This document shows, one piece after another, positions 2,575 to 38,831 of a stretch of DNA of 64,000 nt (the stretch's first letter is position 1; each line of letters begins with the position of its first letter). Origin of the DNA: Ectocarpus siliculosus (taxonomy: Eukaryota; Sar; Phaeophyceae; Ectocarpales; Ectocarpaceae); the NCBI GenBank assembly GCA_000310025.1, contig FN649734.1:1805449-1869448 (forward strand), read 5' to 3'. A program made the translations under genes and the position numbers. The notes beneath the pieces were generated by a model, which worked only from the letters and a program-made list of their open reading frames with translations, ran no database searches and was not told the origin of the DNA.

Positions 2575-3790
2575 ATTTCGTACGTTTCCATGGAACGTCA
2601 AATGGAATTCCATCTACTTCCTCCATGGAAACTTCATGGAAGTCCGTGGACGTTCATGACATACCATGGAGTCCCGTCGAAGTCCATTCCGTGAAATCCC
2701 GTGGGCTTCCACGGAACTCCATGGAATGTCTTTAACGTCCATGGAATTCCATGCAACATTTCATGGACGTTCACGACATGTATGTCATGAAAATTTCATG
2801 AAAGTATTCCATTAAGTGTCATGGAACGTTTCATGAAAACATTTCGTGGACGTTCATGACAGGGGTTCATGAACGCCCATGAACATTCACGGAATGTGTC
2901 ATGGAACGTCGTGCATGTAATATTTCATGAACTTTCATGAGTGCCCATGAAATTGTAGTTCATGGATGTCCACGGAATGTTTCTTGGAAGTCCATGGAAA
3001 TTCATGTCATGTTTCATGGACGTTCATGGAACTTGTCATGGACTTTCATGAAACATTTCTTGGAAGGCCATGAAACGCCCCCACAGACAAGCAACGAAGA
3101 AATCAGGGATGTTGGGTCACCCACATTTTCGGCGGTTTTGCTAACCCACCGATGGGGCCCATGGGTGGCCCATGGGCCGCTCATGGGCACCACGTCGTGC
3201 CCATGGGATGCCCATAGACAGTCTACGGGCCGCATAGGGGCCTTGGTGCCCACGGGCGAGGAGCCCATCAGCCGCCCATGGGAAATGCCCACGATCAAGC
3301 CCATGGGCAGCCCATGGTGGGCACTTCCTGGGCAGTTCATGGCCTGCCCCATGGGCTTTTGCACTTTTGCGTCATGAAGTTTGAGAAACATGCCATGGAA
3401 CTCCATGGACTTCCATGAAATGTTCCTTGGTTTCCATGAGCGTCCGCGGTTTGTTTCATTTATGTCTATGGAAGTTTCATGGAAGTCAATGGAAGTCCAT
3501 GAACTGGTACGTGGGCAGTTTCACGGACGTTCATAAAACATTCCATGGACTTCCATGGATTGCTCATAGAAGTTCATTCAATTCCATTGAAGTCCACGGA
3601 AGTCCATGAAAGTGTTTCATTAACATTCATGAACATTCATGGCTGTTAAAGGATGCCCACGGATTTCGTTTGTCGAACACCATTTCGGCTTCTTGGGAAG
3701 ATGACGTGTATGGTCGGTGGAGTTTTCCATGGACTGCCGCCATGAATAGGCGTTTATTCATGGACTTCCATGTGGACTTCCATGCACTAT
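2575..3790. repeat. CCATGG/TTCATGAA palindromic satellite
   Basis: About 1.2 kb is built from degenerate short words centred on CATG, such as TTCCATGGAA, TTCATGGACG and TTTCATGAAA, spaced roughly 10-15 bases apart. Most words are palindromic, so both strands look alike. From about 3130 to 3360 the flanking bases change to GC and the word becomes GCCCATGGGC. The open frames here, on both strands, are by-products of the repeated ATG. A smaller patch of the same word occurs at 18655-18740. Confidence 0.8.
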
Positions 3791-10535: not shown

Positions 10536-11224
10536 ACACCCGCAGGCTGTAATATTCCCGCTACAAAAACACATACCCACCACATACACTATTAGCGCAG
10601 GGCACCTGCAGCAGAAAATGCAGAAGCAGATCACGCAGTTCTCGGAGGTTCACGGTGTGGGCTGAGAGCAGCTTTCGAGACTGGGGACCCGATCGATCAA
10701 TGAAGGGTAGGGCTAGACTAAGGGACTAAATAGACATTCATGGCAAAGAGGTGGCGAGGACAAAGACTTTTGGCCTACAAGAGACAAGCTTGGGTCCGAG
10801 CTTGGGAATTGCAATATGTTTGCGCCCCCGATACAGGAAGTCTAGTCTACGTAGTGTAGGATGTGACCTGCGCATTAAAAAAGATTCGCCCAGCAGAAGT
10901 ATGATGGGAAATATCCACTTGCTTGAATACTCCCTATTATTGTGCTAACGAGAACTACCAACGTTCCGTTCGAACGTTATGCGTTGATACCCTGCAAACA
11001 GCGGTCTCGGTTCTGCCCGACAATTGCAAGTGGTCCTGGCATAACACCGATCCTATAACAAAAAACGGACAGCACAAGTGTGCTGTTGCAGTACTGTATA
11101 CTGCGATACCGGTACTGTAATTCAGTACAACGGAAGTGTACCTCGTTCTCCCGTTACCTTAATCATCCACCTCTCTCTCTCTTGTCTGACTCTGGCGTGT
11201 CTCTACCCTATAAGCAACCACGAG

Positions 11225-12451
11225 ATGTGCGAGACCCCGCTGGCTGCTAAGTTTTTTCCGGGGGATCCTCCGAACCACGGGATGGACAATCTCTGGCAGG
11301 AAGAGGCGCTGGACGAACTCATCCGACGCAAGCTGGTGGAGATGGGTCGCAAAACCGAATACGAAGTGAAGCACATGCACGTCCACAGCCTCCGAGACGC
11401 GCTGAGGGGCTTCGACATTGTTGTACGAGGAGAGCTAGAGAGTGCATCGAAGGAGAAGGCGGTAGCAAGGAAACAGGCCGACACCGAAGACGCCAAACAT
11501 GATACCGCCAACAACGAGGATGGTGCCCCGAAGACCGCGATCAAGCAGCGCCAGGATTCTCTCAAGATTTACGGTGGGGAAGAAGGCCAACAGGACCGCG
11601 GGGAAAAGATGATGCCGAACCACCCGGAGTCTAGAGTGCAGACCATCTGGGAGATGATGACATGGATCACGGCCCATTCGCCCAAGCCCATGGAAAACAT
11701 ATGGTACGAGTCGAAGGAGCTGATGATGACGCTGCACGAAATCTCGGGACAGAACGCCAGGGGGGCCGTGTGGCCTTCATTCCCTGGCATCGAGAGTTGG
11801 TTTCGTATCGCGAAAGACATCGCTCGTCAGCGGGACTCGCCCCTTCTACTGAGCGTGTTCGAGTTCAAGCGGTTCGCGCTGCGAATTGCGTCATCGTCGG
11901 CCCTATTAGCGTACAACCCTGGCGAGTACGACAATTTAGTCACGTCGGTGTACAATCTGGGGATCTTGGCGCGGTGGACACACGGGTGGTCCGGGCGCCT
12001 GTCGTGCTACTCTGCCTTGTGGACGCCGGGCAACGTGGGCATGGCGCTCCTGGGCGGGCTGACGCTGCTCGTGATCCGCAAGAACGTCGTCACTGACTCT
12101 GTACGCTGCCTCCTTGTAGGCATGGCGTCGGATACCATCATGGGGCGGTATTTGCCGGACAAGGTCCGCGCTGCCAGGACCAAAGAGCTCGCCTATAGGT
12201 ACTCCAACAACAAGGGCAAGACGTGCCGCGGCAGCGGCGTCAAGTGCGTGCGCAAGGCATGTGTGAAGCTCGGGCTCCCGCCTTCGGCAAGCCAGCTCGA
12301 CGGCGCGGTGGCGTTCGCGGTGGGGTGGGCAATGGAGGCCATCGAAGGCCTGCCGGGCAACCAGGCCCCAAGGGACGGTAACAATCACGATCAGATCGAG
12401 GACATCTTCTGCTCCAGCCGCGCGTACCGTTTCACGGACGAACGGCTGTAG
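11225..12451 (+). CDS. Single-exon protein of unknown function, 408 aa
   Basis: An uninterrupted frame opens at ATG 11225 and stops with TAG at 12449-12451. The frame extends further upstream, but this is the first in-frame ATG. The sequence is visibly more GC-rich than its flanks and GC-biased at third positions, as expected of coding DNA. The N-terminal third is acidic and charged, with a lysine/glutamate-rich low-complexity stretch near residues 75-135. The middle is mixed (tryptophan-rich segments such as WYESKELMMTLHEI). One hydrophobic segment (GMALLGGLTLLVI, about residue 275-290) could be a buried helix or a single membrane span. The C-terminal part has several basic and cysteine residues. 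I do not recognise a family and give no function. The lack of introns beside intron-rich neighbours suggests a retrogene, a transferred gene or a lineage-specific gene. A CT-rich stretch at 11166-11185 may belong to the promoter or leader. Confidence 0.65.
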   Translation: MCETPLAAKFFPGDPPNHGMDNLWQEEALDELIRRKLVEMGRKTEYEVKHMHVHSLRDALRGFDIVVRGELESASKEKAVARKQADTEDAKHDTANNEDGAPKTAIKQRQDSLKIYGGEEGQQDRGEKMMPNHPESRVQTIWEMMTWITAHSPKPMENIWYESKELMMTLHEISGQNARGAVWPSFPGIESWFRIAKDIARQRDSPLLLSVFEFKRFALRIASSSALLAYNPGEYDNLVTSVYNLGILARWTHGWSGRLSCYSALWTPGNVGMALLGGLTLLVIRKNVVTDSVRCLLVGMASDTIMGRYLPDKVRAARTKELAYRYSNNKGKTCRGSGVKCVRKACVKLGLPPSASQLDGAVAFAVGWAMEAIEGLPGNQAPRDGNNHDQIEDIFCSSRAYRFTDERL

Positions 12452-20187: not shown

Positions 20188-23100
20188 ATGATGGGGATTC
20201 GATCACTGTCTCTCGTGCTTCCTCTGGCATGTTCGCCGGCGGAATCTTTTGTCCTGCCTGCGACAAGGTTGCGGTCCGTTGCGCCGCTGCGACTAGATTG
20301 TGACGTGCAATACAGCAGAGGTGCGGCCAGGAGCGGAACTGACGCTGCGGTCAAGGGCAGGGAGCGTTTCATGTCAATGGAGCTGGGGCTCAACCCTGTC
20401 AAGCATCGGTGAGAAAGCAGCCACTGTGGTGTGGTCGAGGAAGGGGGGCTAGTGGTTTTTCCTTATCAACGAATCGCCAGAGTTGTCGCACAAGTCAACC
20501 TTCCCCAGGCCTTCAAAACTTCAAACCGGGTTGTCCCTACTCGTACAGCAGTCACCAGTGCAGAGTCATGATGGCCGACCGCCGCGATGTGCCCTGCTCA
20601 ACGATTAAAAGTCGCGTCGGCCCTTGATGTATCTGGGAGTATGCGGTTTTTGTTTGACTTGTGCTCTCGACCACCGCCGTCCATTTCCAATCCCTGTCAC
20701 GAGTGCATGTCGGCGGCAACAGTACCGACAGACCCAGTTGCTGCGCAACCAGCAACAGCAACATGTGTAACATCAACAACACACACACCCTCGCATTTTC
20801 GCCAACGCTGCACCCTCTTCTCACAGCTTTTTCTCAGCCCCAGTGCCCTGGACACCTCGTTTTCAAACCCGCGCTGTAAAACAAGTATCTCAGGTTTACA
20901 CAACTTCCGAGCGGAACGAACTTGCCAGACACACCTTTGCGGATGTACTGCTGTGGCCACCGCGACCCACCGCTCCCGAATCCCAACACATTGCCCTGGC
21001 CTTATGACCAGCTCGAGGGCCTACGAGTGCCTACTGCTGTCGTGCGTGCGTTGTTAGCTAATCAGAGTGTAATTTTGCGTGTGAAAATCTCTGTATTTCG
21101 GTGTTGAAGTTAGGGACGCTCGAGTGGTTCAGCATGGCGTTTCACGTCGATCGTGTTCAACCCTCGACCTCAACTGTTGGTCGCTGTTTTTGGCCGGTTC
21201 CGCTGTTTTCTGCAGATGTTCATGCCAACCCGTGGGCGCACACCGCTCCAGGTCTCTACCCCTGAGGAGCAAGCAGGTGCAGGCATCAGCGGAGGAAACC
21301 AATTTGTCGGCGGATCCAACCCAAGAGACGTTACCCGAGTGCATATCGAACGATGCCGTGTCCTACTGGGTACACCCGGCAAAGGAATCACACATCTGGC
21401 TTGTGGGAGTTGTCCACGGCGCCAAGTCCGGGGTGCAGGTATGAGGAAGCCACTGCTGCAGTTATTGGTGGCCTTGTGTTGTGCCTGGGAACTTCTTTTT
21501 TTTTTAGGTCGCGTGTTCCGCGTTGCCGCGCTCCGACACAGTTCCCGTTGCCATTTGTCCCTATTGCCCTAACAGCAAGGGTTCCTGCCGAAATTGTGTA
21601 CATCTTCCAAGCGTTGATGAGATTTGGGCGGGTACGGTTGGAGGGCTGGAGACACTACAGCAAACGCATTTTGGCGCAGCCAAGGGGGCTGCACGGGTGG
21701 TGCCGATTTTGTCCTAACCGCTGGCTGTAATGCTGTACATCTCCTGTGTACCGTATATGACACAAGATAACACACCCCCTGGGCCGATTTTCAAAGCTCG
21801 ATTTCTCAACAGCAGGAAGAGTCACAGCGCCGAAAATGGCGGCGTTGGAACCGTCTCGTCGAGAGGTTTTCGAAAATGTATTGTTTCGTTTATGCATCCT
21901 CTTCGTCGTGGAGTAATCGAGCTTTGAAAATCGGTCCAGGGGGTGTGTTATCTTGTGTCATATACTGTAGTTCGCACGTTTTCGGTTCTGCAGCACCCCA
22001 ACTCGTTGGAGGACGCCCCAGGACTATGTTATTTCGTCTGGGAACAATGTCTCTTAGATACTACCTCCGTCCATTGCGGGTTCTAAGAATACAATGTTCT
22101 TGGGTCACCGGTGTCTCCGATACAGACTGTCATGTCCCTCTCTCTGCACGTGGGCGCCTTCTCTCCGCCGAGCAGTTGGTGGAGGAAGCGATCGGAGGGA
22201 TCAGGCCAGAAGTCGTCATGGTGGAGCTAGATGCGGATCGCATTTGTGTGCTGCCCCCAGGGGAGGCAATGGAGGTGGGTGCGGTTCCGAACTTTGGTTG
22301 TTAGGACCGTCGTATTTGTTGACCTTCAGGCACAAACAGGAGCGAGCACGTTGAAGGCCGTAAGCGACGACTGACTTGCTGGATCCCTCAGCCCCAGCCC
22401 CCAGAGAGCCGTTGTGTTGAGTCCAGGGACAAACGGCTTGGGTTCCTGTAGGACGGGAGTTTGTTCCGATCCTGCAGTAGCTATGCGATCCCGCCCGCCC
22501 GCCCCATATACCGTTCGTAGCGCCCCTTGGGCCTCGACGCCATTGAGTGCATGTCTTACCTGTTTGTTTGAATAGAAAGGGTAGGAATCGCTGTATACTG
22601 CTAGGAAAAACACAGGTAGCTTCCGCTGACGCCATGAAGTCACTGCAAATCTATCCCAGACTCATCTGTGGAGATGAACTAACTGGGTGTGTCGTAAGTG
22701 AGAAAATAATAAGCTTTTATGCCGCCGTGGTTTCCGCCTTCCGACGTGCTCCTGTCGCGCAGACCCGAAACGGCCTTTGGTGGTGGGCACCAGAGGAAGA
22801 ACCGGTAAGGATGAGACTTCTTGTAGCGTGCTAATGTACCTGTGTTGTTGTGTGTTGAGAATCAGAAGCTTGGGTCTGCGAAGACTGTAGTCAAGAACAG
22901 CTCCCTGGTGGTTTTGGCTGTGCTAGATTGCTTGGTGTGTTCTTTTCAGTGAACGTTAGATCTATTGAAAAGAATTCCTCACTAAAATCAAGAAAATAGG
23001 CTGGTGATGCAAATGACCTGTGCTACGGTGGTCTCAGCAGTGAGCAATCGTGTGTTGTTGACAGATATGCGGAGGTGCACTGTAGAACGTTTACAACCAA

Positions 23101-26100
23101 ATGGAATTTTGTTCTAAGAGAAATGAGGGAAAAAATGTTGTACAAATTTGTTGGATTGTTGAGCTGTGCAGGAAACAGAGTGAGCTCGGTGGGGGGCGTG
23201 CGCTCTGCCTGGTGAGCTTATTACCAGTCCGGAAACGTTCCGGAAACCAAATACCGTTCTATTTGACCAAATGCACTGTTCCGGAAACGTTCGGGAACCA
23301 TACAGTTGTATTCTGGACTTTTCCTGTAAACGTTCCTGAGAACCGTTCGAGGAATGTGTGCCGACCTCGGGAACATTCTACGAACCGTTACGGAATCTAC
23401 TATATCTATGAGTGGATCGTTCTAGATACATTTCCTGAGATATTGTCATTCAAGTTGAAGTTCAATAGCTTACTATACCGCGTTTAGTGTGCCATGTCAC
23501 GTGCACTGAAACCGGTATTGCTTTGTTCTACTGAAATCGCTCATGATGTATGTGACATCTCACAGTGTTGTGTTAATGATAATACTTTTTATAGCAGTCT
23601 TTCTCGGTTGATACTGATATTTTTCTACTCCTCCTCGGTTGAGGTCGCTCAAACCATCGTACATGGCGATTACTTGATCAAACAAGGAGAAAAAACACGA
23701 CTTGCCGAAGCGCGGAACCCGTCCTCGTTTTTGTAAGAGTAGAGTATGCAATGGCACCACCACCAGCTGGGGAGACGGTTCCACCTCCGGGGCAGACTTT
23801 CCCTATGATCCCCTTACACGACATTTTTGCGACGACCACAATGAGGTCGAATCGCTCTCTCCCCGAGTCATCGAGTGAGACGGTATTCCCGTCATCACCT
23901 CCTTTGCAGCACCAACCGAACCTCACCCGTTGTTTGGACGGGCTGAAGCAGCTTCTTCTGGTGGACAACTTTCGGAACACTCCGAAGAGTCCGACTGCGT
24001 GACGTCTCCTGGTGACTCTGTGCTTTCAGCTTTTCCTGGCCTTCGAACGTGAAGAAGACCCACCTGTCTGAGGCTGGGTGTCTCGACAACGACTGACGGT
24101 TGTTGGAATCACGATGGCCGTAGAAAAGGACTGAGAAGCAGAGAATGTAACAAATCTTCGGTAACGATTAGCTCTACTACAGGGCAGGGGCAAACGTACG
24201 GAAACGTGGTGTGTTTGTTGGATTGGTGTAGGCACGGGACATACTTCCTGCTGTCCCGATTGCATCGTTGCGGTTTCACTTGCCGTCGTACGCCGCGAGT
24301 AAATCGCCCGGAAACCAACCCCTGCACATGCAGAGGAGTCTTGATTGGCTTGAAAACCATTTGTTTCGCTTTTTAGTGTGCAGACGGCCCAGAGTTTAGT
24401 TTTGGACTGCTTTAACCCGCCGTTTTGAACAGGAGGGATCAGCTGACGTAGATGAAGATGGCGATGAAGACGGAGAATATGCGGAGGACGACGAGGACGT
24501 GGACGACGGTGAGTGGGAGGTGCACTACGCAACGCCGTGGGCGTAGGTAACCCTGCGGCGTCATTTGTTCGAGGCCCTGACAACGAAACACGACGAATGC
24601 AGTGGTCCGTAGGGTTGCTGCGATAACCCCTTGAAGGGGTGCTAAACATTCACGATTGATGTGCTCTCATGGACTTGATCATATACTGCCGCCCTCGGCC
24701 CCTGCAATAATCTGAGCACCGCGAATGCAGTTATCGCCGGTGCCTCTCGAAATTTTGTGTACTCGTGGGGTGTGCTGGCGATACCGGTGTTAACTGCGAC
24801 ACCCGCTTTTTGTTACCCCCTTCGGCTTACAACATTCCTTCAGAGGAAGAATCAGTTTCACCCATGATTGAAATCCAGACTGCAGTACGCGAAGCGGGAG
24901 CGTGTGGTGCGAGAGTGCTCCTCGGAGACAGGGACTACGAGGTGCGGAACCTTGTGGTTTGATGGCGCGTACTTCTGGACGTACGGGTTCGGTTCCTGTT
25001 CAGTATGATCCGCAACAGACTGAGTGCAGCGGAAACTCCGCCATCCTTTACGCTTACGGCTCCATTGCGTGGGTTGGCTACGTCGTGTTCGCTTGCTGCC
25101 ATCCGTTCGTTTGCGGGGGTTACACCTCAGTATTTTTACCCCTGTCCACCATCCCCCATTTGTTGCTCGTGGGCGTTTTCGCGATAGACGACGGGTCGTC
25201 TACTGGAGAAAGCGAAACGGGCGGACATGGCTAGCGCAAAGGAGAGGAAAGAGTTCAATGATCTTACGACCAGCTTTGATTGCGAGGTGAGCCTTCTGTC
25301 TAGAACGACGGACTCCCGTACCGGGCGTTTGTTTCGCAAGATCTCTTGCACCGTCTGCTGTATTCCAACGCGCACCCAGGAATGAAATTTGTTAACAAAT
25401 TTGTCGACTACTGTAAGTTTGTACAACCAACCCCCCAAAATGTAGACCTCCGCAGCTCCGTACCAAGTGAGACACACCATAGCGTTTGACTCAGATGGGG
25501 GTGATAGTGTGTTCACAAAGTAGAAAATGGGAGCGGCGTGTCCCCTCCAAGCTGTTGTGAAGTGCTTGGCCTTTCATTGAGGCGGACATGTATTTTTGAA
25601 AGTGTAAGAGACATCTTGCCGGTGCGAATCGTCAAGGTTCCCTTTCTCGCTGCGTCCGGCGCTTCATTTGGTGAAAGGTTTGTGTGGCAAACGAGAGTAT
25701 GATGTTTGCCTACTCCAGTATTCGGTGTTTGTCTCACGCTTTCACAGCACCTTGCGCTCACGTCAGATTGTTTTCGGTTAATCGCGTCGGACAGGAATCA
25801 ACACGAGTGATCACACGCAAGGAATGCGCGCAGATGAAAGAACGAGCGCCCAAAGTATTCAAGGTCATGTGCACTCAGCGAGATCAGGTGCGTGTACATC
25901 CCCTGCCCTTTGTCTCGTCCTCTTGTGCATTGAAATTCGAGGTCACGTTTCATTCGTCAGAAGCTTGAGGAAATGTGTTGCTGAAGCCTTCTCATATTTT
26001 GCCGACGACTTATCGCGGGAAGATTGTGTCCTGTGTGCCACCAACTCCTGCTTTCCGGTTGACCGAGGCCACATCGCACACGGTACGTTGAAACTGCAAG

Positions 26101-26796
26101 CGACTGAAACGAATTGGATGACTGTGACTACATACAGTACCCCGCTTTCACCTCTCTATTGGCGAAGCTCATTACGCTTCGAAGGCAAACTCCGGCCTAC
26201 CGCTCTGATAACACGCGCGCTGTAATTTCGGCCGCCAAGTGTGCTTCTTCGATGTCCTCTCATTGCTTCTTTTGGTAGATTTTGCCTCTGCGCTTACCGA
26301 TGCTCCGCCAGTCTCAAACCTTGCACGGGGGTTTTCCTCTGGGGTGATGAATGTCCGGGAAACAACTGTTGTGCCGTTGTTGCGTGCGGTTGGCCTCGCC
26401 TCGCCTCAGTTAGACACTAGCGACTAACAGATGAAGTTTCCTTGCATGCATTTCGTTCTAAAAGTCCCTGCCGTGATGTAGAGCGCCCGTGACAATCGTG
26501 CCGGCTCACACTCGAGCTCTGTACGATGCTACCGATCCCTTCGTATGCTGCTGCAGGCGACCAGCTCAAGGTATCATATTTTTTTCACTCTGAAACCGAT
26601 CCCGTCAATGTCGCTCGCAATCGTTAATCTGCGAGTAAATATTTTGGATGTCTTTGTCTTGCTTCCGCAGGTGATGGCGAAGAACTTGATGAAGCTGCGG
26701 GGAGAGCAGACGACGGTAGCGGTGATCGGAATGGCACACCTTGATGGCGTCGAGAAAGTGTTGAAGGGTCACGGCTGGCAGCGTAGACGGGCGTAA
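20188..26796 (+). CDS. TraB/TIKI-family protein A, plastid-targeted, 9 exons, 358 aa
   Basis: Exons: 20188-20408, 21216-21438, 22176-22274, 22763-22804, 24433-24508, 24844-24941, 25188-25286, 25795-25887, 26671-26796. All junctions are GT-AG, phases agree and the total is 1077 nt. The N-terminus (MMGIRSLSLVLPLACSPA, then ESFVLPATR) looks like a signal peptide followed by a phenylalanine-led transit peptide, the heterokont plastid pattern. The TraB domain shows WLVGVVHG (G138, H141), RPEVVMVELD (E165), RVLLGDRD (R250) and VAVIGMAH (G337, H340); the paired G-x-x-H motifs and the glutamate are the proposed metal or catalytic residues of the TIKI/TraB superfamily. The substrate is unknown. An acidic aspartate/glutamate linker is encoded by the 76-nt exon 5. 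ATG 20191 is an equally possible start. The gene converges on paralogue B, and intron 2 contains a MITE. Confidence 0.85.
21754..21964. mobile_element. TA-flanked MITE in TraB-A intron 2
   Basis: A 211-bp stretch has terminal inverted repeats of about 45 bp with one mismatch. Each end begins TATATGACACAAGATAACAC and continues through CCCCTGG to TTCAAAGCTCGA. If the outer TA pairs are the target duplication, this is a Tc1/mariner-type MITE. The inner motif TTTCAAAGCTCG recurs near 47450 and 56685, so this is a small family. No transposase is encoded. Confidence 0.75.
23215..23400. repeat. GGAACGTTCC-like palindrome cluster
   Basis: Within TraB-A intron 4, words such as CCGGAAACGTTCCGG, GGAAACGTTCGGGAA and AACGTTCCTGAG recur at least six times in 180 bp. 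They resemble the CCATGG satellite in design (short degenerate palindromes) but have a different core. Confidence 0.55.
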
Positions 26797-26901
26797 GCGA
26801 ATCAACCCCAAGAAATATCAGCGGTGCACCCAGTTCTCATACTCCCGTACGGGGCTTGTAGCATGGTGCCAGCCAGTGGTGTTCTCAAGGAACTGTGGAA
26901 T

Positions 26902-27013
26902 TGTGGTTGTTGTTGTTGTTGTTGTCTTCACATTAAAAGCCGTTCCGGTCTCCTCTCAGTATTTTCTAATGTCCGTACTGGTCCAACTGACGCGGACGCC
27001 TTCCGTGGTCACA
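26902..27013 (-). repeat. SINE-like element with (AAC)n tail, copy 3
   Basis: On the minus strand it starts TGTGACCACGGAAGG and ends ATGTGAAGACAACAACAAC, with the AAC run as tail. The body matches the plus-strand copy at 46116-46262 almost throughout. Confidence 0.65.
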
Positions 27014-27614
27014 AGCCAACTGCCGCCAAAGGGGGGCTACACCTTCCAAAAAATTAAAATGGACACCAGAAAAATACTTGGTCAAGGCGCTATAGGTTTT
27101 CTACCCAAACAAAAAGAACAAAACAAAACAAAACAAGGGAAAAGGGCTAATAACTAATAACCGGGATGCAGACGATCGACACAGGCCAAAAAAGGGATGA
27201 CAGCATGAAAGACAACGCAAGCGAGAAAAGAAAGAGAGGGAGAAAGACAACGGATCCGAAAGGGAAGATAGACAGGTTCCCTCCGACACTCCAGTCTACC
27301 GGAACAACAACGAAAAGGCAACTACTACGTGACACCAAACAGGTGACTGACTTCCTACGACTCAAATCACTTCGGGGGCACTTCGAGAGAGGGGGGGTTA
27401 GCGACACGACGGAAAAATAAAAATATGGGGATACGTTTGACTGATATTCCTGCTATCGTCGCCATCGTCAACCTCAGTCCGGCACACATCTCTCTATCCG
27501 TTCAGCCATCTCCGTCCTTCCCTCTTCATATATTTAGAATTCAGGTCTAAATAGCACGGTTTGAAATTGGAACGCATGCGATCATTCTTTTTCTGCCTCG
27601 ATTTGTGCCTTGTG

Positions 27615-27715
27615 GGCAGAGATACAGCCGGGGGGGTGTTTAGACACTAATCCCCCCCCGGGGGGGGGGTCGTAGAATCCCCCCCCTCGGGGGGGATTTA
27701 GACACGCCGTTTAGG
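27615..27715. repeat. G-run/C-run inverted repeats
   Basis: Alternating runs of 7-11 G and 7-9 C surround two inverted copies of TGTTTAGACAC/ATTTAGACACG. The strand can fold into strong hairpins, and the G-runs could form quadruplexes. Run lengths are likely to be unreliable in the assembly. Confidence 0.6.
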
Positions 27716-28280
27716 AGCAAGTGCTTTGCGGCAGCAAGACAATCCGGAATTCCCTGTAGTGTCGAGGGGCTGATGCGATGTATTGTGCGAGGTCATAAGA
27801 CTTGTAAGAGTCTCGCCTTGCTGCTTAAACCTTTGGGTGGCGGTATTCAGCGCCAAATACGGATACGCCACTCCAAGATGTGATTTACAAGCACTTTGAC
27901 CACGCTCAATGGTCTCCAAGGATGACTCCCCTGTGGGTGCGGAGAGTTCTACCTAGAACATCAGCTTCGTGTTCACTGAACAGGAGGTATTCCCTCCCAA
28001 GATCTCGCGATTGTTTGGCTTCAGCGAAGGACAGCATTCGTCGCGTCTTCCACGCATCTCCCGATTAAAGCTCTCCCAGAGATGATTCGCCCAGTGGGTG
28101 CGGGCAAGGTATCCATAATTAGCTTCGCAGGTGGACAGAGTTCTGCCGAAAATTTTGCTCCCTTTCCACAATGGGCTCGGCCGTGAGGCGAACGTCAGGT
28201 CTCCTTGGAGGCGTAGGAATCTCTGAGCAACGCTTTCGGTCATGCCACCGACGACATCTCCATCAGACCACCTGAGCGCC

Positions 28281-31200
28281 TCATCTTCGCCGAGTTTTCC
28301 ATCCGTTGGCCTTCAAGATTCCTCCGATTCCTATCGTGTGGTGAGCCCCAACTACAGCTACCGTTCCGTGACCCTCCTCGAGTTTCAAGAGATTGCTCGC
28401 CATCACCTGGTAAACCGAGATTGTGAAGATAGGGAACATCAGTGAGCGTCGTTCTCGGCCCCACAAATGGCGACAAAATACGTCCGAAATGTACCTGTAG
28501 AGGCAACAGGCTCCGTCGCGGAGCTGACGGCATCAGCTGGGCGAATGGATACAATAGGTGTGCATGCTCCCCCACGTATCTCATTCGAGTCTTGGCGACG
28601 GTTGCACCTACTGATGTCCACGTCGATAATTTTTGTATGGGCTCACCTCATCTCGCTCGGTCACGAGGACAGCAAACTTTCGTGGTTTCCAGGTCTTTTC
28701 CAAGTCGCGCAGCTTGCGCCACAAAGCGGGCGATGTTCCCTGCAGAGCCGTTTCGGAAGGTAATATCGTCAGCGCCCCGTGACATGTTGGGCGTGGATAG
28801 CTGAGTTGATGCTTCATCACGGCTCTGGTCTGGCAAGAAAAAAAACAAGCCATCACGTGGCCTTCGCACAAATCACGGATGGAAAAGGGGGAGAAGACAA
28901 TACGCTAATTGCCAACGGCTCCCACCAGTTTTGGGGTCTCCTGCCCAAGGTGAATATCACAGTACCGTTGCCGAGGAAAAATAGCGAAGAAATAGCGAAC
29001 ATTTCTCCACGCCATGCCCATTCATGGAATCGCCAACGGTGTGCGGTCACACGAAACACACCACCGTTCCAGCTGGTGAACAGCAGTGTTGCATCTTCGA
29101 GGCTCAGCGAGATGTGTGCCTCGAATCTAGCGTCGTTCACCTCGAGGACACGTCGCTTGATTCGCGCTTCAACCGTGGTTTTCTTCCCCGCACTGCTGCC
29201 CCCGAGTGAACTCATTGCTTCTTCCTGGTCCGCACGGTCCGCGTCGGAGACTCGGCGCTTGGTCTCCTAGAGCGACGTGCACGTCGACATGCGAAACAGG
29301 GCCTGGCTGAGGACAACGTGCCAGGTGCATTCCGCGCCCGAACCTCATAGGTGGAGCTCGAAGAAAGCTGGTTCGGCTTTTTCGGGATTGACAGTTTCAT
29401 GGACTGTAAGTGAAGGTGTAAAACAGAAAATAGGACTCGGTTGAGATAAATTTGTCCGATGTCCACCCGTTCAAGGGACGACTTAGTGCGGACTCTATTC
29501 TCTGATGTGTGAGGCCACCCCGAATACTTTTCGCCAAGAGGTCCCTTGCGCGGGAACAAGATTGCAAATGGTCCAAGCAGATAAATAGCTCAAGGTGCAG
29601 CTTGTGCTGCCGATGTCAACCTCGACATGCACGCGGCCCAGTTGCAGATCGCTGGAACGTTTTGTGTCTAGGCACGAGCTCGAACGCCAAATCCTGCAAG
29701 GGCTCAAGCACGCGGCTATCAAGATGGAACCGGAATGACCCACAGGAATGCACACCACTGTCATCACAAACAGAGCGCGCGATACCACTTCTCTTGTGGA
29801 CTTATTTGAACACAGTCGTAGGTTGTGGCAATGTACGCCAGTCGAGGATCTTTTTTGCTGTCACTCGCACCGACCACTTCAAGAGTTCGAACATCACACA
29901 AGGTCCAAAAAGACACGAGGAAAATACAAGCTCCAGACACATCGACCAGGGCATGAACCGATGCGAAGTAGAGCTGGAGACGAAGCATACTGCCAGCTTC
30001 ACATAACACTCCCACCAACCTGGAAGTCTCTGTCTCCGAGAAGAACGCGGGCGCCACAAGCGACAGCCTGCCGAGCTGCTGCATAGAACTCGCTCATCTC
30101 CATTCCGTAGGTATTCATTCCGTTCTTGGCCCGGCGTCTCGTTCCGGCGACAGCATTCGTCGCCGTTTCAAGCCCATCACCTGAAATAGAGACAACGTTT
30201 ACAACATCGAAAGCCGACACTTAACAAGGCAGTCTCCACGATGAAGTTTACGAAAAAATAGGCTGTCCAAGACACCGAAAAACGCTCACCAGAAATATGG
30301 TAGCCTCATGCGGACGCGAATGTGACCATGATAATTTGAATGTTTTCATCTCCGATGAATGCGTATATCTCCCCGGCTCTGGGACCGTTCCATGACCTCT
30401 GCGGTAGTAATCAGCGTACATAGACTTTGAGCGTCACTGAGAGCCAACGCTGTAACTTCTCCATGCAAAACAAACCCATGCTTCTCGCGGTAGATACTGC
30501 ACTTACCTGGAGTCCGGGATGTGTTCGCCGCTTGGGCTTCATCCTTGTCCCGATCACTGCTAGTAACAGCAGTTGCTGGACCCTGAAACGCACATTTAGA
30601 TACCGTTCATGTTCACATATCACCGCAGCGGGCGGACGATTTGCTAGGACACTCGAAACAAACCTAGTGGCCCATACAAAGGCTAGGGTCGTTCGGTATC
30701 GGCGATCCTAGAGTGTGGCATCAACAGAGCTGCAGTCGAACGAAAGCCTGCCAGGCTATGACTTCACGATATGGTTATTCTCCAAAAAGATGGGGCGCTC
30801 TCTGGTAGATACTTCATTTTCCGGGGATATTCAAAGAGCGTTTCCTTCCATGTTGCAGCCAAACGAACATCAATGACAAGGAAAGTTCTCATTGTAAGTT
30901 GACGACAATAATTGTACTTGTACATGAAATGAAGTGACATTCCGAATCTCCGTTGTTCGACGACGATTTCAGTCCGCGTGTGGACTTTCAGTTCTAGGCG
31001 ACTCCTCCTCACCGCCTCTCGTACGGCATTCCACCACCACAGGCCATCGCCGTCCTGCAAGGATCAATAATTCAGGGGGGAAAGAACGCGACCAAGCAAA
31101 CGTATTTGCCAATGACACGAAAACACACCAAGCGCACGGCAAACGCCTAGCAGGATCTCCGTCAGAAGAAATCTTGCCCACTCGCCAGCTTCAAGTGCAT

Positions 31201-33348
31201 CTAATCGTCAAATATGCGCATACGTAGGGGACAAGCATGCCTGATGTGGGTTGCGAGGGCGCGGTACTCGAGAGGGTTCTGGTCATCGGCGGTGGGCGTT
31301 TAACGCCATGGTTGCGACATGGAAATCGCGCAATGTTGACCCACCGTTCGTCAGTGTATTCACGGTGGAACGTAACCCGTCAATCCTCCACGTGGCAATC
31401 CCCGACAACTGTTGGAGGAAGCTAAAACTCAGGATCGCCATCCCTACGTTCTTCGTGTGTCGTACCCTTCGCCAAAACTCTCATGGCCTCGGAACGCTGG
31501 CGAAAGACGAGCGTGTACAGCAGTAGGAACATCACCCCGGACGGGGAAACGACCAGCGAAAAAAACAAGACCACCCCATACCATCATACCTGGTACAGAC
31601 GACGACATACCTTTGTTGCTTCTCCCGGAGGCAGCATCTTGATCCGACAAGGGTCGATCTCGACCATGACAACTTTCGGCTTCACCCTCCGGACAACCTT
31701 CTTGACCAACTGCCAAAACCATGTACCGACATGCATCGAAGCAAGAGGGCAAGCTCACAAACGGAATATCGCGCACTTCGACGAGGCACAGCGAAGATGC
31801 CAGAAAGAGAACCTGACTACAACATAACCATTGCAGTGCAACTAGCGGTGATGCGTGTGGGCTGCCGGAGGTCGGGGGCATTCATTTTTGTTGTAGTACA
31901 GAAGTAGCGTGTGCTTCTGACAAAAGAGGGTGCAGTGGGGTTCGCGTCCCATCATCGCCATGACCAGGCATCTCCGAGGGGCGTGCTACAAACGGCGGTC
32001 ATCGTTCACGTAACCCTGTCCGCAGTTTGATCAGCTTCAGGGACTGACACCAACCTATTTTGGGGTTGACTGGTTTTGAAAAAAAACGCAAGAGCATCAG
32101 AAAATATATGCGAGACACAAAAGACCAGTCGTAAGGTATCGAGAAAAAAAAGTCGTTGATTCTCGCACAGGGCGGCAGTTGGGGCTGCTCGAAACATACG
32201 TATCATGCAGTCTTCCTCCACACACCTCCTTTCAAATCAAGAGAAAAATCCACACCAGTCTGAGTTTATGGGCCAGTCCGCAGGCGCCCAAACAAGGTCG
32301 GTTATGCTTATTATCTTACGCTTGCTACTGATATCATAGAGGACCCTAAGCAGCGGGGGGGTCTGCTTCTTGAGTGGTGATATCGGGGGTCGCACTAGCG
32401 GCCTAGGGTATAATCTCCGCAAATTTGACCGCCGCCCAGTGTCTTCATTTTTTGTTTTTGTTGTGAAATGAAATTGACGTACTGCTTGTGCTCGCCGCAA
32501 TCTCCTAAACTGCGGGAATATCGTAGTAGCTGATGCCACTAGCTACTGCTGACGACCCGCCGCAGGGGTTCACGGTCCGTCGCGGTGAGCACGGCTGTGA
32601 CAAATGTTTGGTTCCGGCACAGAGTTGCGGACTGTTCTCAGAGACTGGTGCCACCTTCGATACTACAGCTACAGCCGTAATCCTGAACGAGCCAGCTCAC
32701 ACGACACCTCTCTATAATGTCCTCTGCAGTACTGATAACGTAGCTAAATAGCGTAAGATAGAAACGGCGGGAACGTTGCTCTCCTGTGTACACCATGTTG
32801 TATAGAGCCAGCGTCAGAAGAAGGTTGGCGTCAGTTTCTTAACAAAACCACAAGCACGCGCGAAGCTGCTTATTCCAAAGAATCGTGGGTGAATCAAGGT
32901 AACTCTGGCCGATCTGATCACACCACCCACACGACAAGCACCTCCCATCTCTAAAAATGGTAAGCGGCAACCTCCAAGGATCACCTCGCACCGGCGCCAA
33001 CCTGTCCTAGGAAACAAACGTACAGGACCGCACCTTCGAGCTAGCCTTGGTGTTGTGGGTCGTCCCCACGAGCCAAATTTTGGAGCTTGTGTTTGGATCG
33101 TGGAAATAAAACACGTCGTCGTCGGACAGAAACTCGGGTGGTCGCTCCGAGCCTACCCTCCTCGAGTTCGCGTGCTGAGCCGTGCAGGCGCTCCTGATAG
33201 CAATGCGACATGACGGTTCATGCTGGAATTTAGGGGTTGAAGCCGAAGAAGATGGCAGTAGTCGCGCCCCGCGCGGCGAAACGAATGAAGAGGAAGTTAA
33301 GAATGTCAAGGCGGAGTACAAACACAGCACGCGATGCCGATGCCTCAT
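28281..33348 (-). CDS. TraB/TIKI-family protein B, plastid-targeted, 8 exons, 345 aa
   Basis: Exons from 5' to 3': 33348-33034, 31709-31611, 31054-31013, 30582-30507, 30180-30020, 29266-29141, 28739-28647, 28406-28281. Phases agree and the total is 1038 nt. The start is the only in-frame ATG before the domain. The N-terminus (YSALTFLTSSSFVSPRGA) is a signal peptide with a serine-phenylalanine cleavage motif. Family motifs are WLVGTTHN (G95, H98), KPKVVMVEID (E122), RVLLGDRD and VAVVGAHH (G324, H327). Exons 31709-31611, 31054-31013 and 28406-28281 have exactly the same lengths and phases as in paralogues A and C. It differs in that the first two exons of A and C are one exon here, and the exon before LGDRD is longer (161 nt). 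It diverges from C and converges on A. Substrate unknown. Confidence 0.85.
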
Positions 33349-33568
33349 GATCCCTCGCTCCAGCAGGCAGCAGGCTGAGGAAGCAGGTTGATGAGGCTTT
33401 GGATGACATGTTACGGCGGGGTCAGCGCCTTGATGACTTTACATCACGGAGCCCCTTAATCTCGCCGCATTTTTGTGTAAACCCTATCCGCGATTGAATG
33501 CATCCTTTCGCACAGCTTCAGCGTACACTAGAACGCGCTCGCGCTGCCTCTCGTCACGGAGAGAAACC
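33349..33568. promoter_or_regulatory. Shared bidirectional promoter interval of TraB-B and TraB-C
   Basis: Only 220 bp separate the start codons of two divergently transcribed TraB genes, so both leaders and core promoters must lie here, or overlap the opposite gene. I see no convincing TATA box. AT-rich words occur near 33460-33480 (CATTTTTGTGTAAAC). The call rests on gene geometry, not on a recognised motif. Confidence 0.55.
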
Positions 33569-36500
33569 ATGTGGCTCAGAGCCGGGCCGGTGCTGCTGGG
33601 TTTTTTCTCCTTGCCGACAGGCTCGTTCGTGCTGCCTCCAACGCCTATCTTGGCCCGCGTCAACTACAGAGCTTCTGCTGATTTTCGGGCTCCTGTCAAC
33701 GGCGGAGGGCATGGTGGGTTTACAGGGCCTGGAGCTGAGCCACTCCAGCGCCGGTGAGCTGGGTGCACGCCGCGAGTTCATGCTACTCCCACGCACAGCT
33801 GTTGTTTTGCACCCTCCGCAGAGGCGTATTTTGAAGCCGTTTAAACCCGATCCATATCTGTCTGTTGCTGTACACTGTATGGTAGACTACTGCGCCGTAG
33901 GCATACTGTACGGCAGTGCTGCAGTCGATATTTCACTCGCGCTGTAAGCGTGGCACCTACCAACTGTCGTAAGCTACAATTGTACATGTAGGCATGCGTT
34001 GGGAGGCAGGCGAGACAGGCTTACTGCCACATGCGCTGCGCTACATGTGTGAAGAGGTGTGTGCTGCATAGTGCAGTCGTGTCTGTTCGCGTGCCTCTCC
34101 GCAACTGCTGCTCGCATCGGTCATCACAACGGGCTTACGACAATACTCCACGATGCCTCGTGTGAATACACGAGCAAAAGGCTCCTGTGATTATCGATGT
34201 GGTTGGGGACAATAGTACCGATGGCATGACGTATCGGTTGACACTCCAACGCCTGGTTCACTCCCTGCAGCATCTGGCTTGAGCAAGACACGCACGGTAG
34301 TACCTGGCCTCTCGCAAGGAACCAGCAACCGGGCTCGACCATGCGTTGCGCATGGTACAATGTGCTTCGTTTGTGTTAAGGAGAAGTCGAGTATTTCCTG
34401 CTACGGGAAATGTGAAGTACTCGGGGCTGTTTCACTCTGTTCATGATTTCCTCGGTTTCTTTCGTACGACAGGGTGCATTTCAGAGAGCAAATCTCGTTT
34501 CCTCAAGGAAGAAAATATGCTACACTCTTCATCTGCGTCCTTCGGCTGCTGCTTCTCGTTGTGTTGTGGAGGCAATTGTTGTTACAATACAAGCTTGTTG
34601 TTCGTGCCCGGACGGTGTGCTTCCTTGGACGGTGCTCCTGATCCTTACGCGTCGATTGTCTATGGGGAACCGCACCGAATCCGTCTCCCGCTGCATCCAC
34701 TACAGCAGGATCGCTCCAAAAAGCTGCCGGTGTTGCTGCAACTTTTGCAGGGGTATGTCCCACGCCTTTGGTGGCATACCCACGTTGATGGCCACGAATG
34801 GCATGAGGCTAGCATCCCACGAAGGAGCCCAATTCTCCGCGAACGCACGATCTGAGGCAGTCCCAGCGTTTACCTCCAACGATGGCGTTTCGTACCTTCG
34901 GAATCCGGATACCGGATCAGAGATTTGGCTTGTCGGGGTCGTGCACGGCCAAGAAACCAGCGTGGAGGTGAACGGAACAGTTGACACGGTCGTAAACAAC
35001 GGCTGTTACTGTAAATTTCCATTTGGTGCACCACAAGTGTGGGGGCTGCAGCCTCCAATGCTTTGTGGCCTGCAGCGGCTTTGTTGACCTACATGGAAAG
35101 AACAAGCCCCGATTTGTCTTCCCCATGGTCACTCGGGTAGCCGGTCTGGTGTGCAAAGGGCTTTGATTAGTTTCGAACACCTTCAACCTCGCGGGGAGCA
35201 GAGTCTTCCAAGGTTACGTTCTCTTTTGAGAAAGAAAGATAGGCTTCTCAAGTGCCAGTAACTTTGGCCTCCTGGATTTGGTAACGAATTTGAGCTGGCG
35301 GTACCTCAATGTTAACAACACCTGGAACGAGACCAGATATATTGTGTTTCGTCTTCGCAAGCGTGTTTGCTGTTTCGTTTGTTTTTTTGTCTCCATGAGC
35401 TAGAACAACCCCAACTTAGTGGAACCCACTGTTGCACGAAAATCTTGGTCTCACACGGCTTTATGGTCTGCATCTTGCTCGATCGTGCAGCTGTCGAAGA
35501 GCGTGGTCCGGACAACTAGGCCGCAAGTCGTCATGTTAGAACTTGATTCAAAACGCCTCGACGACTTGCCACCAGGAGAAGCTCAAAAGGTAGGCCTAGC
35601 TCTCGCTGTGTGGTATCGGCCCCAAAGAACGTCTGGCCGAATTTGGCCGAATGTCTTGCAGCTTTGCATGCATTTGATCAAAGAACTGACATCAGCTCCA
35701 CTCTGTTGTACGCGATTGACAAGGCTTGAGTAAGCGACAGGCCCTGTCTGACACCTAGAAGCGTAGCTTGGTACGTGATCATTTTGGAGGGCTGTATCGA
35801 TTGTGCGCGTTTTCTAAGGTGTGTTGTGTCGCGAAATCACATGTTTTAACGCCCACCCCTCTGTCCCGTGTGTGTGTGTGTGCGTGTGTGTTTATTCGTT
35901 TCGCCTTTTTTTCCTCACCGATGCAATCGTGTTGTATTGCGGCAGGCTGAGGACGGGCTGACCTGGTTTATGCCGGAGAAACAACCGGTGAGCTCCTTCC
36001 AATCCGGGCATGACGCAGACCATCGGTCTCATTTTTTTTTTGAGTCGTTGTGTTAAGTCTTGATTTGCTTTAGAGTAGGTCAGAGGGTCGATCGTCAGCT
36101 AACGGCAGCATGAAGGGGTTGGGCTCGATTCTTGGTGACACGGGTGTACCTTCAACCTTCAAGATGTGGGCGTCCTCTCTCTAGCTCACCCGAGCACCGC
36201 GTTGTTGAAACTCGTTTCGTGTGTCAGGACGACGCCGTTGCTCAATACGTCACCTTGGAGGGCGGTGGCGACGACGTTGAGTTGTCTCGCGGCGACAGGT
36301 GGAAAGGGCCGTTTTCTTTCATGTCCAGCTCGAGGGCGAAGTCGTTCGTGGGGGCCATCAAAGCCATGGTCGACGTTTTTGGTGAGATATTTTTCTGGTG
36401 CGTGCCCTTTGTGCTTGCTCTTGCCGTTTATTTGGGATGTTCTTCATGCAAACAATTTTCTTGTCCTCAGCGGAGAACGTGAATACGACGCAAAGCTTCT

Positions 36501-38831
36501 ATCCGTGGAGTTCGACTGCCGGAGTTTCACAAGTTCTGACAAGTGTACGGCAAGGGGAACATGCGAAGAGAAGGGCGTTGTAATATGCTGGCGGAGGCTG
36601 CCATATAAAACGCCGAATCTTCCATACGGCAAACGTGTATATCTAAACGGCATCGTGTTGCGTCATTTCCTGGTAGTCAACCTCGCTAACCTGCTAGTAG
36701 CAGGCTGTGGGTTCGATTTCTCTCGCTGGATAACTTGCAGTCGAAAACTAATTACTTCGTGAGTAAACACACTCCGGTTGCAGGGTTTGCGCGGAAAAGG
36801 GGCGGCTGAACCCTGCTCTCAATCGAAACTAAGGCAGGGACGGCAAGAGGAAAGGTGGGGCAATCAATATATCTTATGTTAGGATAATAGGCTCCAGCTT
36901 GACCTTCCTCCTGTGTGACCGGGGTGTGACGTCGAACACATACACCGAGAGGTGTGCATACATTACCGAGAATATCTGGCACGAACACACACATACGTTG
37001 CACCACAACCCGAAGCAGCAGGACGATATGTCATTCTGTTCGACCCCTTTTTTGTTCAACTCTTGTCTCCGCCCTCACACCAACCCGTCCCCCCGCCCCC
37101 CGCGGCGTCCGATGTGCGGTGTGCAGAGGAGGAAGAAGTCAGCGAAATGGAAGTTGCAGTGCTTGAGGCTCAAGCCTGCGGTGCTCGGGTTCTCCTTGGG
37201 GACAGGGATTTCGAGGTGAATGTCCTCATCTCGTACGGTATGAGACCAGGCACCAGCTCTCCAACCTACCTTGGCGGACAATGATTAGAATAATTTTGGT
37301 CGATAAACTGTAGTAACTATTTTTCTTCGGACGACTGCATTAGACGTAGGAGACGGGCTTAGGTAATAGAGTTTAGCTCAACGCAACGAAACCAACTGCA
37401 CGCTTACTCGTTGTCTGCCTTTTTAATTGTTTTTCAACCGCGTTGTTGAAAAGTTGATCCCTATCCGCATCTGTGCAACACCGAGTGTCACCGTCGACTG
37501 AAATAGATGTTCGATTCTCTGAGAATTCACATTTTTTCTTTTTTGCCCAACCAACGGTTGACTTTCACAACCCTACACTTGATGCAATGGGATGATTTCG
37601 TTTTGGGACCGGCAGGAGACTAAGCGAAGGCTAGTGGCAGCGGGGCTTGCGGACACAGTAGGTGACGAACGGCTGGATGATCCGGAAGCCTTGTTGAACG
37701 ACTCCATGTCCGTGTCGAACAGGAAGAAGTTCGCTGGCCTGGATTTAAGGGTATGAAATCAACATCACCCGTGACTTTTGTGCCTACACATGTGGTTCCA
37801 TTCGCGTCTTTTTCGCGGTTTTTCGTTTAGAGTTGGATGTGACAGGACGCGCGGGTACGTTGGTTGCATGACCCCCCGCTTGAAGTCACTCATGTTCAAT
37901 CAATAGTATACACGATTCAGCAGGGACAGAGCTACGTGCCGTGAAGAGTGTTGCAATATTGTGTTGATGTGACTGTGAGCGGTTGTTCCGAACCATCCAT
38001 GATTGAGGTGTAGAATACCATGTGGAGCGAATGTAGCTGCGAGAGTATTCCAAGTGTACTGGTTGTCGTTGCATATCCCAAACGTCGATGGTCAGCTGCG
38101 TATGTTTGTTTCCAGCGTTCCGCGGGTACTTGAACATGAGCATGTTATGGTACCATGGTTGCGTGTTCGGACAAAATGCCTTCGATTCGATGCGCATTTC
38201 TACAGAAGCCGGAAACGCGTGAGACTGCGGGAGAACACTACGCTGCTATGAAACGTCTGTCCAACCAACGGGCCCTTGAGGCTATGGTCCCTGAGCGAGA
38301 TGAGGTATTGCGCGGTCTTCTGGTCGGGGGCATGCATACCTCGTCAATTTCGTATCGTATTTTGGTTCCGTTTGCTGATACTGCTATCGCCGTTCTTACT
38401 TTCTACGGTTGTTGCTTTCGAAGCATCTCCTTTCGCATGATTTCGATTGTGGATAAGGCATTCCAATTAATATTGCGTCATCTCGAAGTATGTTTCCTGG
38501 ACGTCTTGGGTTGTGATCAACTGAAAGTGACCAGTTCCGTGATATTACACAGGGGCCGATGTTCAGTCACCTTCCCATATTTCTTTCCTGCCGCCTTTTC
38601 TCACGGCATTCCATGTTGTTCGCCGCTGTTGAGGGCAACGTTGGCGCAGCAGGTTTTCTGACGCCATACGCTGCTGGCGTGTTTCCTTCTCAATTTTTCC
38701 TTCAGGTGATGGCGAGCAACCTCATGACCATAAAAGGGAAGCCCATCACGGTAGCCCTCGTTGGACTATTTCACGTGGACGGCATCGAAAGGATCCTGAA
38801 GCGCAACGGTTGGAACCACGGGCCGGCATAA
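33569..38831 (+). CDS. TraB/TIKI-family protein C, plastid-targeted, 9 exons, 381 aa
   Basis: Exons: 33569-33753, 34751-34967, 35491-35589, 35946-35987, 36228-36381, 37127-37215, 37616-37750, 38206-38304, 38706-38831. Phases agree and the total is 1146 nt. The exon at 38206 could start three bases later. The N-terminus (MWLRAGPVLLGFFSLPTG, then SFVLPPTP) is a signal peptide with the same SFVLP cleavage motif as paralogue A. Domain motifs are WLVGVVHG (G124, H127), RPQVVMLELD (E151), RVLLGDRD and VALVGLFH (G360, H363). Exon 5 is twice as long as in A and B (154 against 76 nt) and adds a region ending FVGAIKAMVDVF. Exon 1 ends in the same phase as in A, so A and C share the first intron that B lacks. 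The family is linked to proteolysis or signal processing in other organisms; the role here is unknown. Confidence 0.85.

Follow-up and report, generated by a model that had tools for sequence, protein, structure and literature searches.

TraB-domain genes with putative plastid presequences form a family on one contig of Ectocarpus siliculosus

Introduction

Three neighbouring genes in a 64,000-nucleotide stretch of Ectocarpus siliculosus contig FN649734.1 (positions 1,805,449 to 1,869,448, forward strand; the window) encode proteins with a TraB domain behind what look like plastid presequences. Work on eukaryotic TraB proteins has concerned mitochondria, endoplasmic reticulum (ER) contacts and the cell surface (PMC9513094, PMC12329661; papers with a PMC number are cited here for the excerpts at hand). 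The locus raises the question of what such a domain might do in an algal plastid, and in which compartment of it. The reading favoured here, with a probability of roughly one half (about 0.52), is that the genes belong to a nuclear family of at least five members encoding plastid-directed, short, soluble, metal-dependent peptidase-like proteins of the TraB/PrgY type, with one member (g4) in the thylakoid lumen and its relatives in the stroma.

Results and Discussion

Gene models in the window and further members

The window genes g1, g2 and g3 were rebuilt exon by exon with GT-AG borders and matching phases. The resulting sequence-based models are open proteins, and their ends coincide with the outer coordinates of a first-pass annotation that had described three spliced genes in + - + order (Table 1). 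Exon lengths are 221/223/99/42/76/98/99/93/126 nt in g1, 315/99/42/76/161/126/93/126 nt in g2 and 185/217/99/42/154/89/135/99/126 nt in g3. As annotated, the 99-, 42- and 126-nt exons have the same length in all three genes, the last being the terminal coding exon including the stop, and the second-last exons measure 93, 93 and 99 nt. For the second-last exon of g2, a 183-nt form (alternative acceptor 28829) is likewise open; the 93-nt form was chosen because it has the same length as that of g1. A variable linker exon measures 76 nt in g1 and g2 and 154 nt in g3, in each case a multiple of three plus one base. Each of the three models starts at the first in-frame ATG downstream of a stop codon.

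The Ectocarpus assembly itself (492 contigs, 189 Mb) was searched with g1 and g2, and subsequently with g4. Two additional sets of matching exons were found beyond the window on the same contig (C9). The first, g4, lies 64 kb upstream of g1 and the second, g5, 0.46 Mb from it. The paralogy and exon plan of the annotated three-gene cluster stand, and its framing is incomplete, with at least five genes on the contig and possibly a distant one elsewhere. The count of five is a lower limit from these three queries. Plasmid PrgY gave a single match in the genome (E 6.85). A Pfam family search of the unspliced genome gave no match, which introns may explain and which is hence no evidence for absence. 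Pattern scans for prokaryotic and viral relatives confirmed none (0/90 stretches on viral contigs, 0/54 on genome contigs).

The TraB domain and its probable activity

All five models exceed the gathering cut-off of 26.8 bits for Pfam PF01963 (TraB_PrgY_gumN; scores in Table 1), in agreement with the domain assignment made earlier for the window genes. The motifs listed at that time are also present. The GxxH pairs are GVVH/GMAH in g1, GTTH/GAHH in g2 and GVVH/GLFH in g3, the glutamate motif reads VELD, VEID and, departing from the annotated V-E-L/I-D, LELD, and LGDRD occurs in all three. Across the alignment of the five proteins, LxGxxH, the glutamate of (V/L)E(L/I)D, LGDR, (E/Q)RDxVMA and the second GxxH are common to every member. 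Two GxxH motifs, an acidic E-x-D residue and a DR motif form the active site of the PF01963 family, and the GxxH motifs of animal TIKI follow such a metal-site logic.

Homology to the plasmid proteins is clear, and it is confined to the core. NCBIfam TIGR00261 (traB) was matched by all four models given to it (g1–g4, E 2e-12 to 5e-26), with scores of 91.5, 60.3, 59.3 and 46.6 bits that lie under the full-length cut-off of 178.35 and so fall short of full-length PrgY-type membership. The best stretches end at profile positions 214–216 of 380, and the C-terminal half of PrgY with its hydrophobic spans is missing from all five algal proteins. The best PrgY match among the five is that of g4 (residues 142–399, 27% identity, E 7e-21); the other four range from E 2e-11 to 3e-5. 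A search of the PDB with g4 alone returned two low matches, the best stretches of which are N-terminal, ahead of the TraB domain.

PrgY has been described as a membrane-localised peptidase that is presumed to break down pheromone (PMC7117660), and TIKI as a putative metalloprotease, with the protease activity of TRABD and TRB1/2 still to be investigated (PMC12329661). By analogy with these relatives, the most likely activity of the algal TraB domain is that of a metal-dependent peptidase or hydrolase. The histidines of the two GxxH motifs, together with the glutamate of VE(L/I)D, would form the active site, and the substrate would be a peptide.

Such proteins might instead serve an organelle membrane complex as structural or scaffold subunits and not be enzymes. 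The complex IV of ciliates has a TraB-family accessory subunit (PDB 7w5z and others; PMC10060162, figure legend), plant TRB1/2 are described as contact-site and mitophagy proteins (PMC9513094), and the protease status of TRABD and TRB1/2 is called open (PMC12329661). In the algal family, the linker between the motifs varies greatly in length. However, all five proteins retain the glutamate and the two GxxH motifs, which suits a working metal site. The ciliate chains show a weak match to PrgY (E 0.053) and none to the algal family profile. A scaffold role is thus considered unlikely. A domain that binds haem or another cofactor without cutting peptides, like ChaN-like superfamily members, is very improbable: g1 has a weak match to the ChaN family (PF04187, 14.0 bits), but this is below the cut-off of 27.7, is listed for one of the five models at E up to 1 and is far exceeded by the TraB scores.

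Shared introns and divergence

Three introns occupy the same alignment column in phase 0 in all five genes: before LVE/LSK (column 161), after LGDR(D/S)xx (307) and before VMA (394). In addition, two phase-0 introns lie at near-equal columns in all five, one after the 96/99-nt exon (column 196, but 193 in g4) and one before the second-last exon (columns 357–362). The remaining positions are less uniform. A presequence intron in phase 2 (columns 77–79) is found in four of the five genes, including g1 and g3, and is absent from g2; a phase-1 intron ahead of the LGDRD exon lies at column 275 in g1, g3 and g4 and at 245 in g2, with none in g5. The third exon of g4 has 96 nt as against 99, and in place of the 42-nt exon g4 has a single 187-nt exon. 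The g5 counterpart of the 42-nt exon has 43 nt and a phase-1 border. By these models, an extra tryptophan-rich exon (42/43 nt) marks g1, g2, g3 and g5, having been gained there or lost in g4.

Pairwise identity within the domain is 38–42% in all ten pairs. Second codon positions differ in 35–44% of codons, compared with 54–78% at four-fold sites (10/10 pairs), and silent sites are near saturation between the five genes. This combination points to old duplications whose proteins have been held from drifting. In the tree, g4 has the shortest branch (0.49 vs 1.07–1.47) and is placed outside a weakly supported group (81/71) of the other four; PrgY, the only outside row, sits on a very long branch, so the tree gives no firm order of duplication. 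As judged from its PrgY match, its branch length and its lack of the 42-nt exon, g4 is the least changed member.

N-terminal presequences

Each of the five proteins begins with a hydrophobic 12-mer followed by xFV, with the phenylalanine at residue 20–22. The motif is SFV in four of the five and SFV-x-P in g1–g3 (Table 1), which is the sequence resemblance behind the annotated serine-phenylalanine cleavage motif; the junctions of g4 and g5 read AES-FVVP and SCP-FVMQ. The mean Kyte-Doolittle (KD) hydropathy of the 12-mer is 1.72, 1.92 and 1.52 in g1, g2 and g3, within a five-gene range of 1.52–2.23, and no 12-mer elsewhere in g2 or g5 scores higher. The 25 residues after the phenylalanine hold 0–2 acidic residues in all five. 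A loose motif rule fits four of the five genes and 0.7–4.5% of shuffled controls per gene; since the rule was set post hoc and the genes are related, the result is support, not proof, for a plastid-type presequence.

In almost all heterokont plastid precursors a phenylalanine follows the cleavage site (HECTAR paper, PMC2567999). The precursors described here would accordingly be made for a complex (secondary, red-lineage) plastid, each with a signal peptide, a transit peptide starting at the conserved phenylalanine and a soluble TraB domain. In the assembly, 87 places match the light-harvesting family PF00504, exon pieces counted apart, and one of these reads VEVKHGRIAML, which we take to be of the chlorophyll a/c type; a red-lineage plastid is likely on these grounds. 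Given the bipartite-type N-termini of the trio and g4, with g5 less clean, and the many light-harvesting matches in the genome, a plastid direction of the family is plausible.

The same first stretch, signal-peptide-like in all five, could belong to proteins that are neither stromal nor lumenal but are secreted or halt in the periplastid space, between the plastid membranes. The P-F junction of g5 in place of S-F would suit such a fate, as would the example of animal TIKI, which is tethered to the plasma membrane (PMC12329661). However, the phenylalanine after the hydrophobic run is present in all five, it is absent from cryptophyte periplastid proteins (HECTAR paper, PMC2567999), and acidic residues behind it are few. 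In addition, g4 has a second, putative twin-arginine-type signal that would be sensible only beyond the stroma. Secretion or arrest in the periplastid space is for these reasons judged distinctly unlikely.

A putative twin-arginine lumen-type signal in g4

The most informative addition to the earlier account is found in g4. Behind the SFV, its sequence reads as a predicted twin-arginine lumen-type signal, with RRALLR (after D) followed by 35 uncharged alanine-rich residues (core KD mean 1.18). At the corresponding position in g3, the end of exon 1 and the start of exon 2 together give RR, and the core behind it is broken, holding P, N and R (KD mean 0.62). In g2, RR occurs at 63 and 112, in neither case with a long uncharged core behind it, and g1 and g5 have no RR within the first 120 residues.

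Plastid import with a split between lumen and stroma would account for this pattern as follows. The least changed member, g4, would carry the additional lumen signal, and since it does, the family is proposed to have originated probably as a thylakoid-lumen or thylakoid-facing protein. The members with the extra 42/43-nt exon (g1, g2, g3 and g5) would have had their lumen signal lost or broken and would stay in the stroma. The window trio would be faster-changing, probably stromal duplicates. A wider proposal can be put forward tentatively and is the more doubtful one: that a TraB protease-like domain was placed in the thylakoid lumen of a red-lineage plastid (g4), that repeated duplications on one chromosome gave a stromal set by loss of the lumen signal, and that the TIKI/TraB superfamily so acquired a plastid branch for peptide processing or quality control.

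Several observations count against the assignment as a plastid peptidase family with a lumenal member. The N-terminal runs of g1–g4 fall under the 19-residue KD threshold of 1.6, and higher-scoring 12-mers occur elsewhere in g3 (four) and g4 (two; g1 has one). The junction is SFVxP and not ASAFAP, with serine at -1 (proline in g5) and proline at +4 instead of +3; proline at -1 makes a poor signal-peptidase site. In g4, the exception among the five, the chosen ATG is not the first in frame after a stop: two extra in-frame ATGs lie 117 and 240 nt upstream, and a start at either would bury the presequence. As an in-genome control, eight loci out of the 87 light-harvesting places were examined, and none of them showed a clean presequence connected to the gene. 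With respect to catalysis, LGDRD is kept in four of the five proteins and is LGDRS in g5, and the T-L-x-R that follows LGDR is kept in g4, lost in g1 and g5 and present only as T-K-R-R in g2 and g3, so that activity may have changed in these four. Lastly, searches of the PDB with the three- and five-member family alignments matched no solved structure at E 1.

If true, a plastid, possibly lumenal, branch would be a new compartment for the TraB family, and g4 with its relatives would offer a ready comparison with and without a lumen signal for a family whose enzymatic role in organelles remains open (PMC12329661). In the open-licence literature, no paper was found that joins TraB with the thylakoid lumen, with Ectocarpus or with the diatom plastid, and the main text of an ochrophyte plastid proteome paper (PMC5462543, main text only) does not contain the term TraB.

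Comparison with known TraB-family systems

The PrgY/TraB proteins of enterococcal pheromone plasmids (TIGR00261) share with the algal family a TraB core with LVGxxH, E-x-D, DRD, ERD and GxxH. The algal proteins differ in that they stop at the core, have long N-terminal extensions and are encoded by intron-rich nuclear genes. Of the label TraB/TIKI used in the first-pass annotation, the TraB half is well founded (PF01963, TIGR00261, PrgY). The TIKI half is loose: the relatives compared are TraB/PrgY, without the membrane half of PrgY. By description, the Wnt-inactivating animal TIKI belongs to the same named superfamily as TraB/PrgY (PMC12329661, PMC7117660); unlike TIKI, which is anchored at the plasma membrane by glycosylphosphatidylinositol, the algal five have no evident C-terminal anchor. 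The only 19-mer above a KD of 1.6 outside the N-termini is the VAVVG core strand of g4.

Tetrahymena is another protist of the SAR group (stramenopiles, alveolates and Rhizaria). Its complex IV subunit of the TraB family (7w5z) is likewise a TraB domain in a protist organelle, but it is mitochondrial and unmatched by the algal family profile. Plant TRB1, TRB2 and TRB3 and animal TRABD are, again by description, eukaryotic TraB-domain proteins, and TRB3 resembles the algal proteins in having no membrane span (PMC9513094). In contrast to the location proposed here, they are placed at the mitochondrial outer membrane, the ER or the cytoplasm, and none is described inside a plastid in the excerpts at hand.

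A candidate on another contig may be closer to the TRB/TRABD type. At C23:2662500-2671500 (L040), TraB-like pieces lie in order on the minus strand: VGCLHG...VVLELCESR, VVLGDRDVQETLRRL and ERDDVLADNVM..VVAVLGLLHCNG, with GLLHCNG also noted and the N-terminus uncertain. The last piece scored 13.4 bits with Pfam, under the cut-off, and the other two gave nothing. The locus is possibly a distant TraB-like gene, as a candidate only; its affinity is suggested by the VLELC motif, of a kind that TRABD-type proteins also have.

Table 1. Coordinates of the TraB-domain genes and associated features. Positions are those of the window unless a contig (C9) or locus (L021) is named.
Feature	Position	Strand	Description
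g1	20188-26796	+	TraB-domain gene, 358 aa, 9 coding exons; PF01963 52.3 bits
g1 coding exons	20188-20408, 21216-21438, 22176-22274, 22763-22804, 24433-24508, 24844-24941, 25188-25286, 25795-25887, 26671-26796	+	
g1 N-terminus	20188-20253	+	hydrophobic run then AES-FVLP, F at residue 21; presumed signal peptide/transit peptide junction
g2	33348-28281	-	TraB-domain gene, 345 aa, 8 coding exons; PF01963 50.4 bits
g2 coding exons	33348-33034, 31709-31611, 31054-31013, 30582-30507, 30180-30020, 29266-29141, 28739-28647, 28406-28281	-	
g2 N-terminus	33280-33348	-	hydrophobic run then SSS-FVSP, F at residue 22; presumed junction
g2-g3 intergenic stretch	33349-33568		220 bp between start codons, head to head (model coordinates)
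g3	33569-38831	+	TraB-domain gene, 381 aa, 9 coding exons; PF01963 38.2 bits
g3 coding exons	33569-33753, 34751-34967, 35491-35589, 35946-35987, 36228-36381, 37127-37215, 37616-37750, 38206-38304, 38706-38831	+	
g3 N-terminus	33569-33640	+	hydrophobic run then TGS-FVLP, F at residue 20; presumed junction
g3 exon 2 start	34751-34810	+	with exon 1 end gives RR (residues 61-62) at the position of the g4 signal
g4	C9:1755429-1761673	+	406 aa; PF01963 61.7 bits
g4 putative twin-arginine lumen-type signal	L021 1658-1662 joined to 2683-2790		split by presequence intron; outside the window
g5	C9:1355641-1362398	-	357 aa; PF01963 33.1 bits

Other features of the locus and the genome

By model coordinates, g1 and g2 lie tail to tail, 1.5 kb apart. 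Given the head-to-head arrangement of g2 and g3 and the 220 bp between their start codons, the two genes may be driven by a common promoter in the gap. The longest of the nine listed open frames of at least 170 aa in the window, at 11078-12451 on the + strand, has 457 aa and no Pfam match; five of the nine were compared with Pfam, and none matched at E 0.01. Among the light-harvesting matches in the assembly, 18 have an equal score of 127.6 bits and lie on contigs C92 (10), C232 (3) and C488 (5), where they look like a near-identical array.

Intron 2 of g1 contains a 221-bp element (window 21749-21969) that resembles a miniature inverted-repeat transposable element (MITE), with 62-nt inverted ends (94%). 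In the Ectocarpus genome, 2692 first-look candidates for this element were found, and the best 40 of the 2692 scored 98–100% identity, from which at least part of the MITE-like family looks recently amplified. By eye, a stretch in intron 1 of g5 (L022, about 7868-7680, minus strand) resembles the same element.

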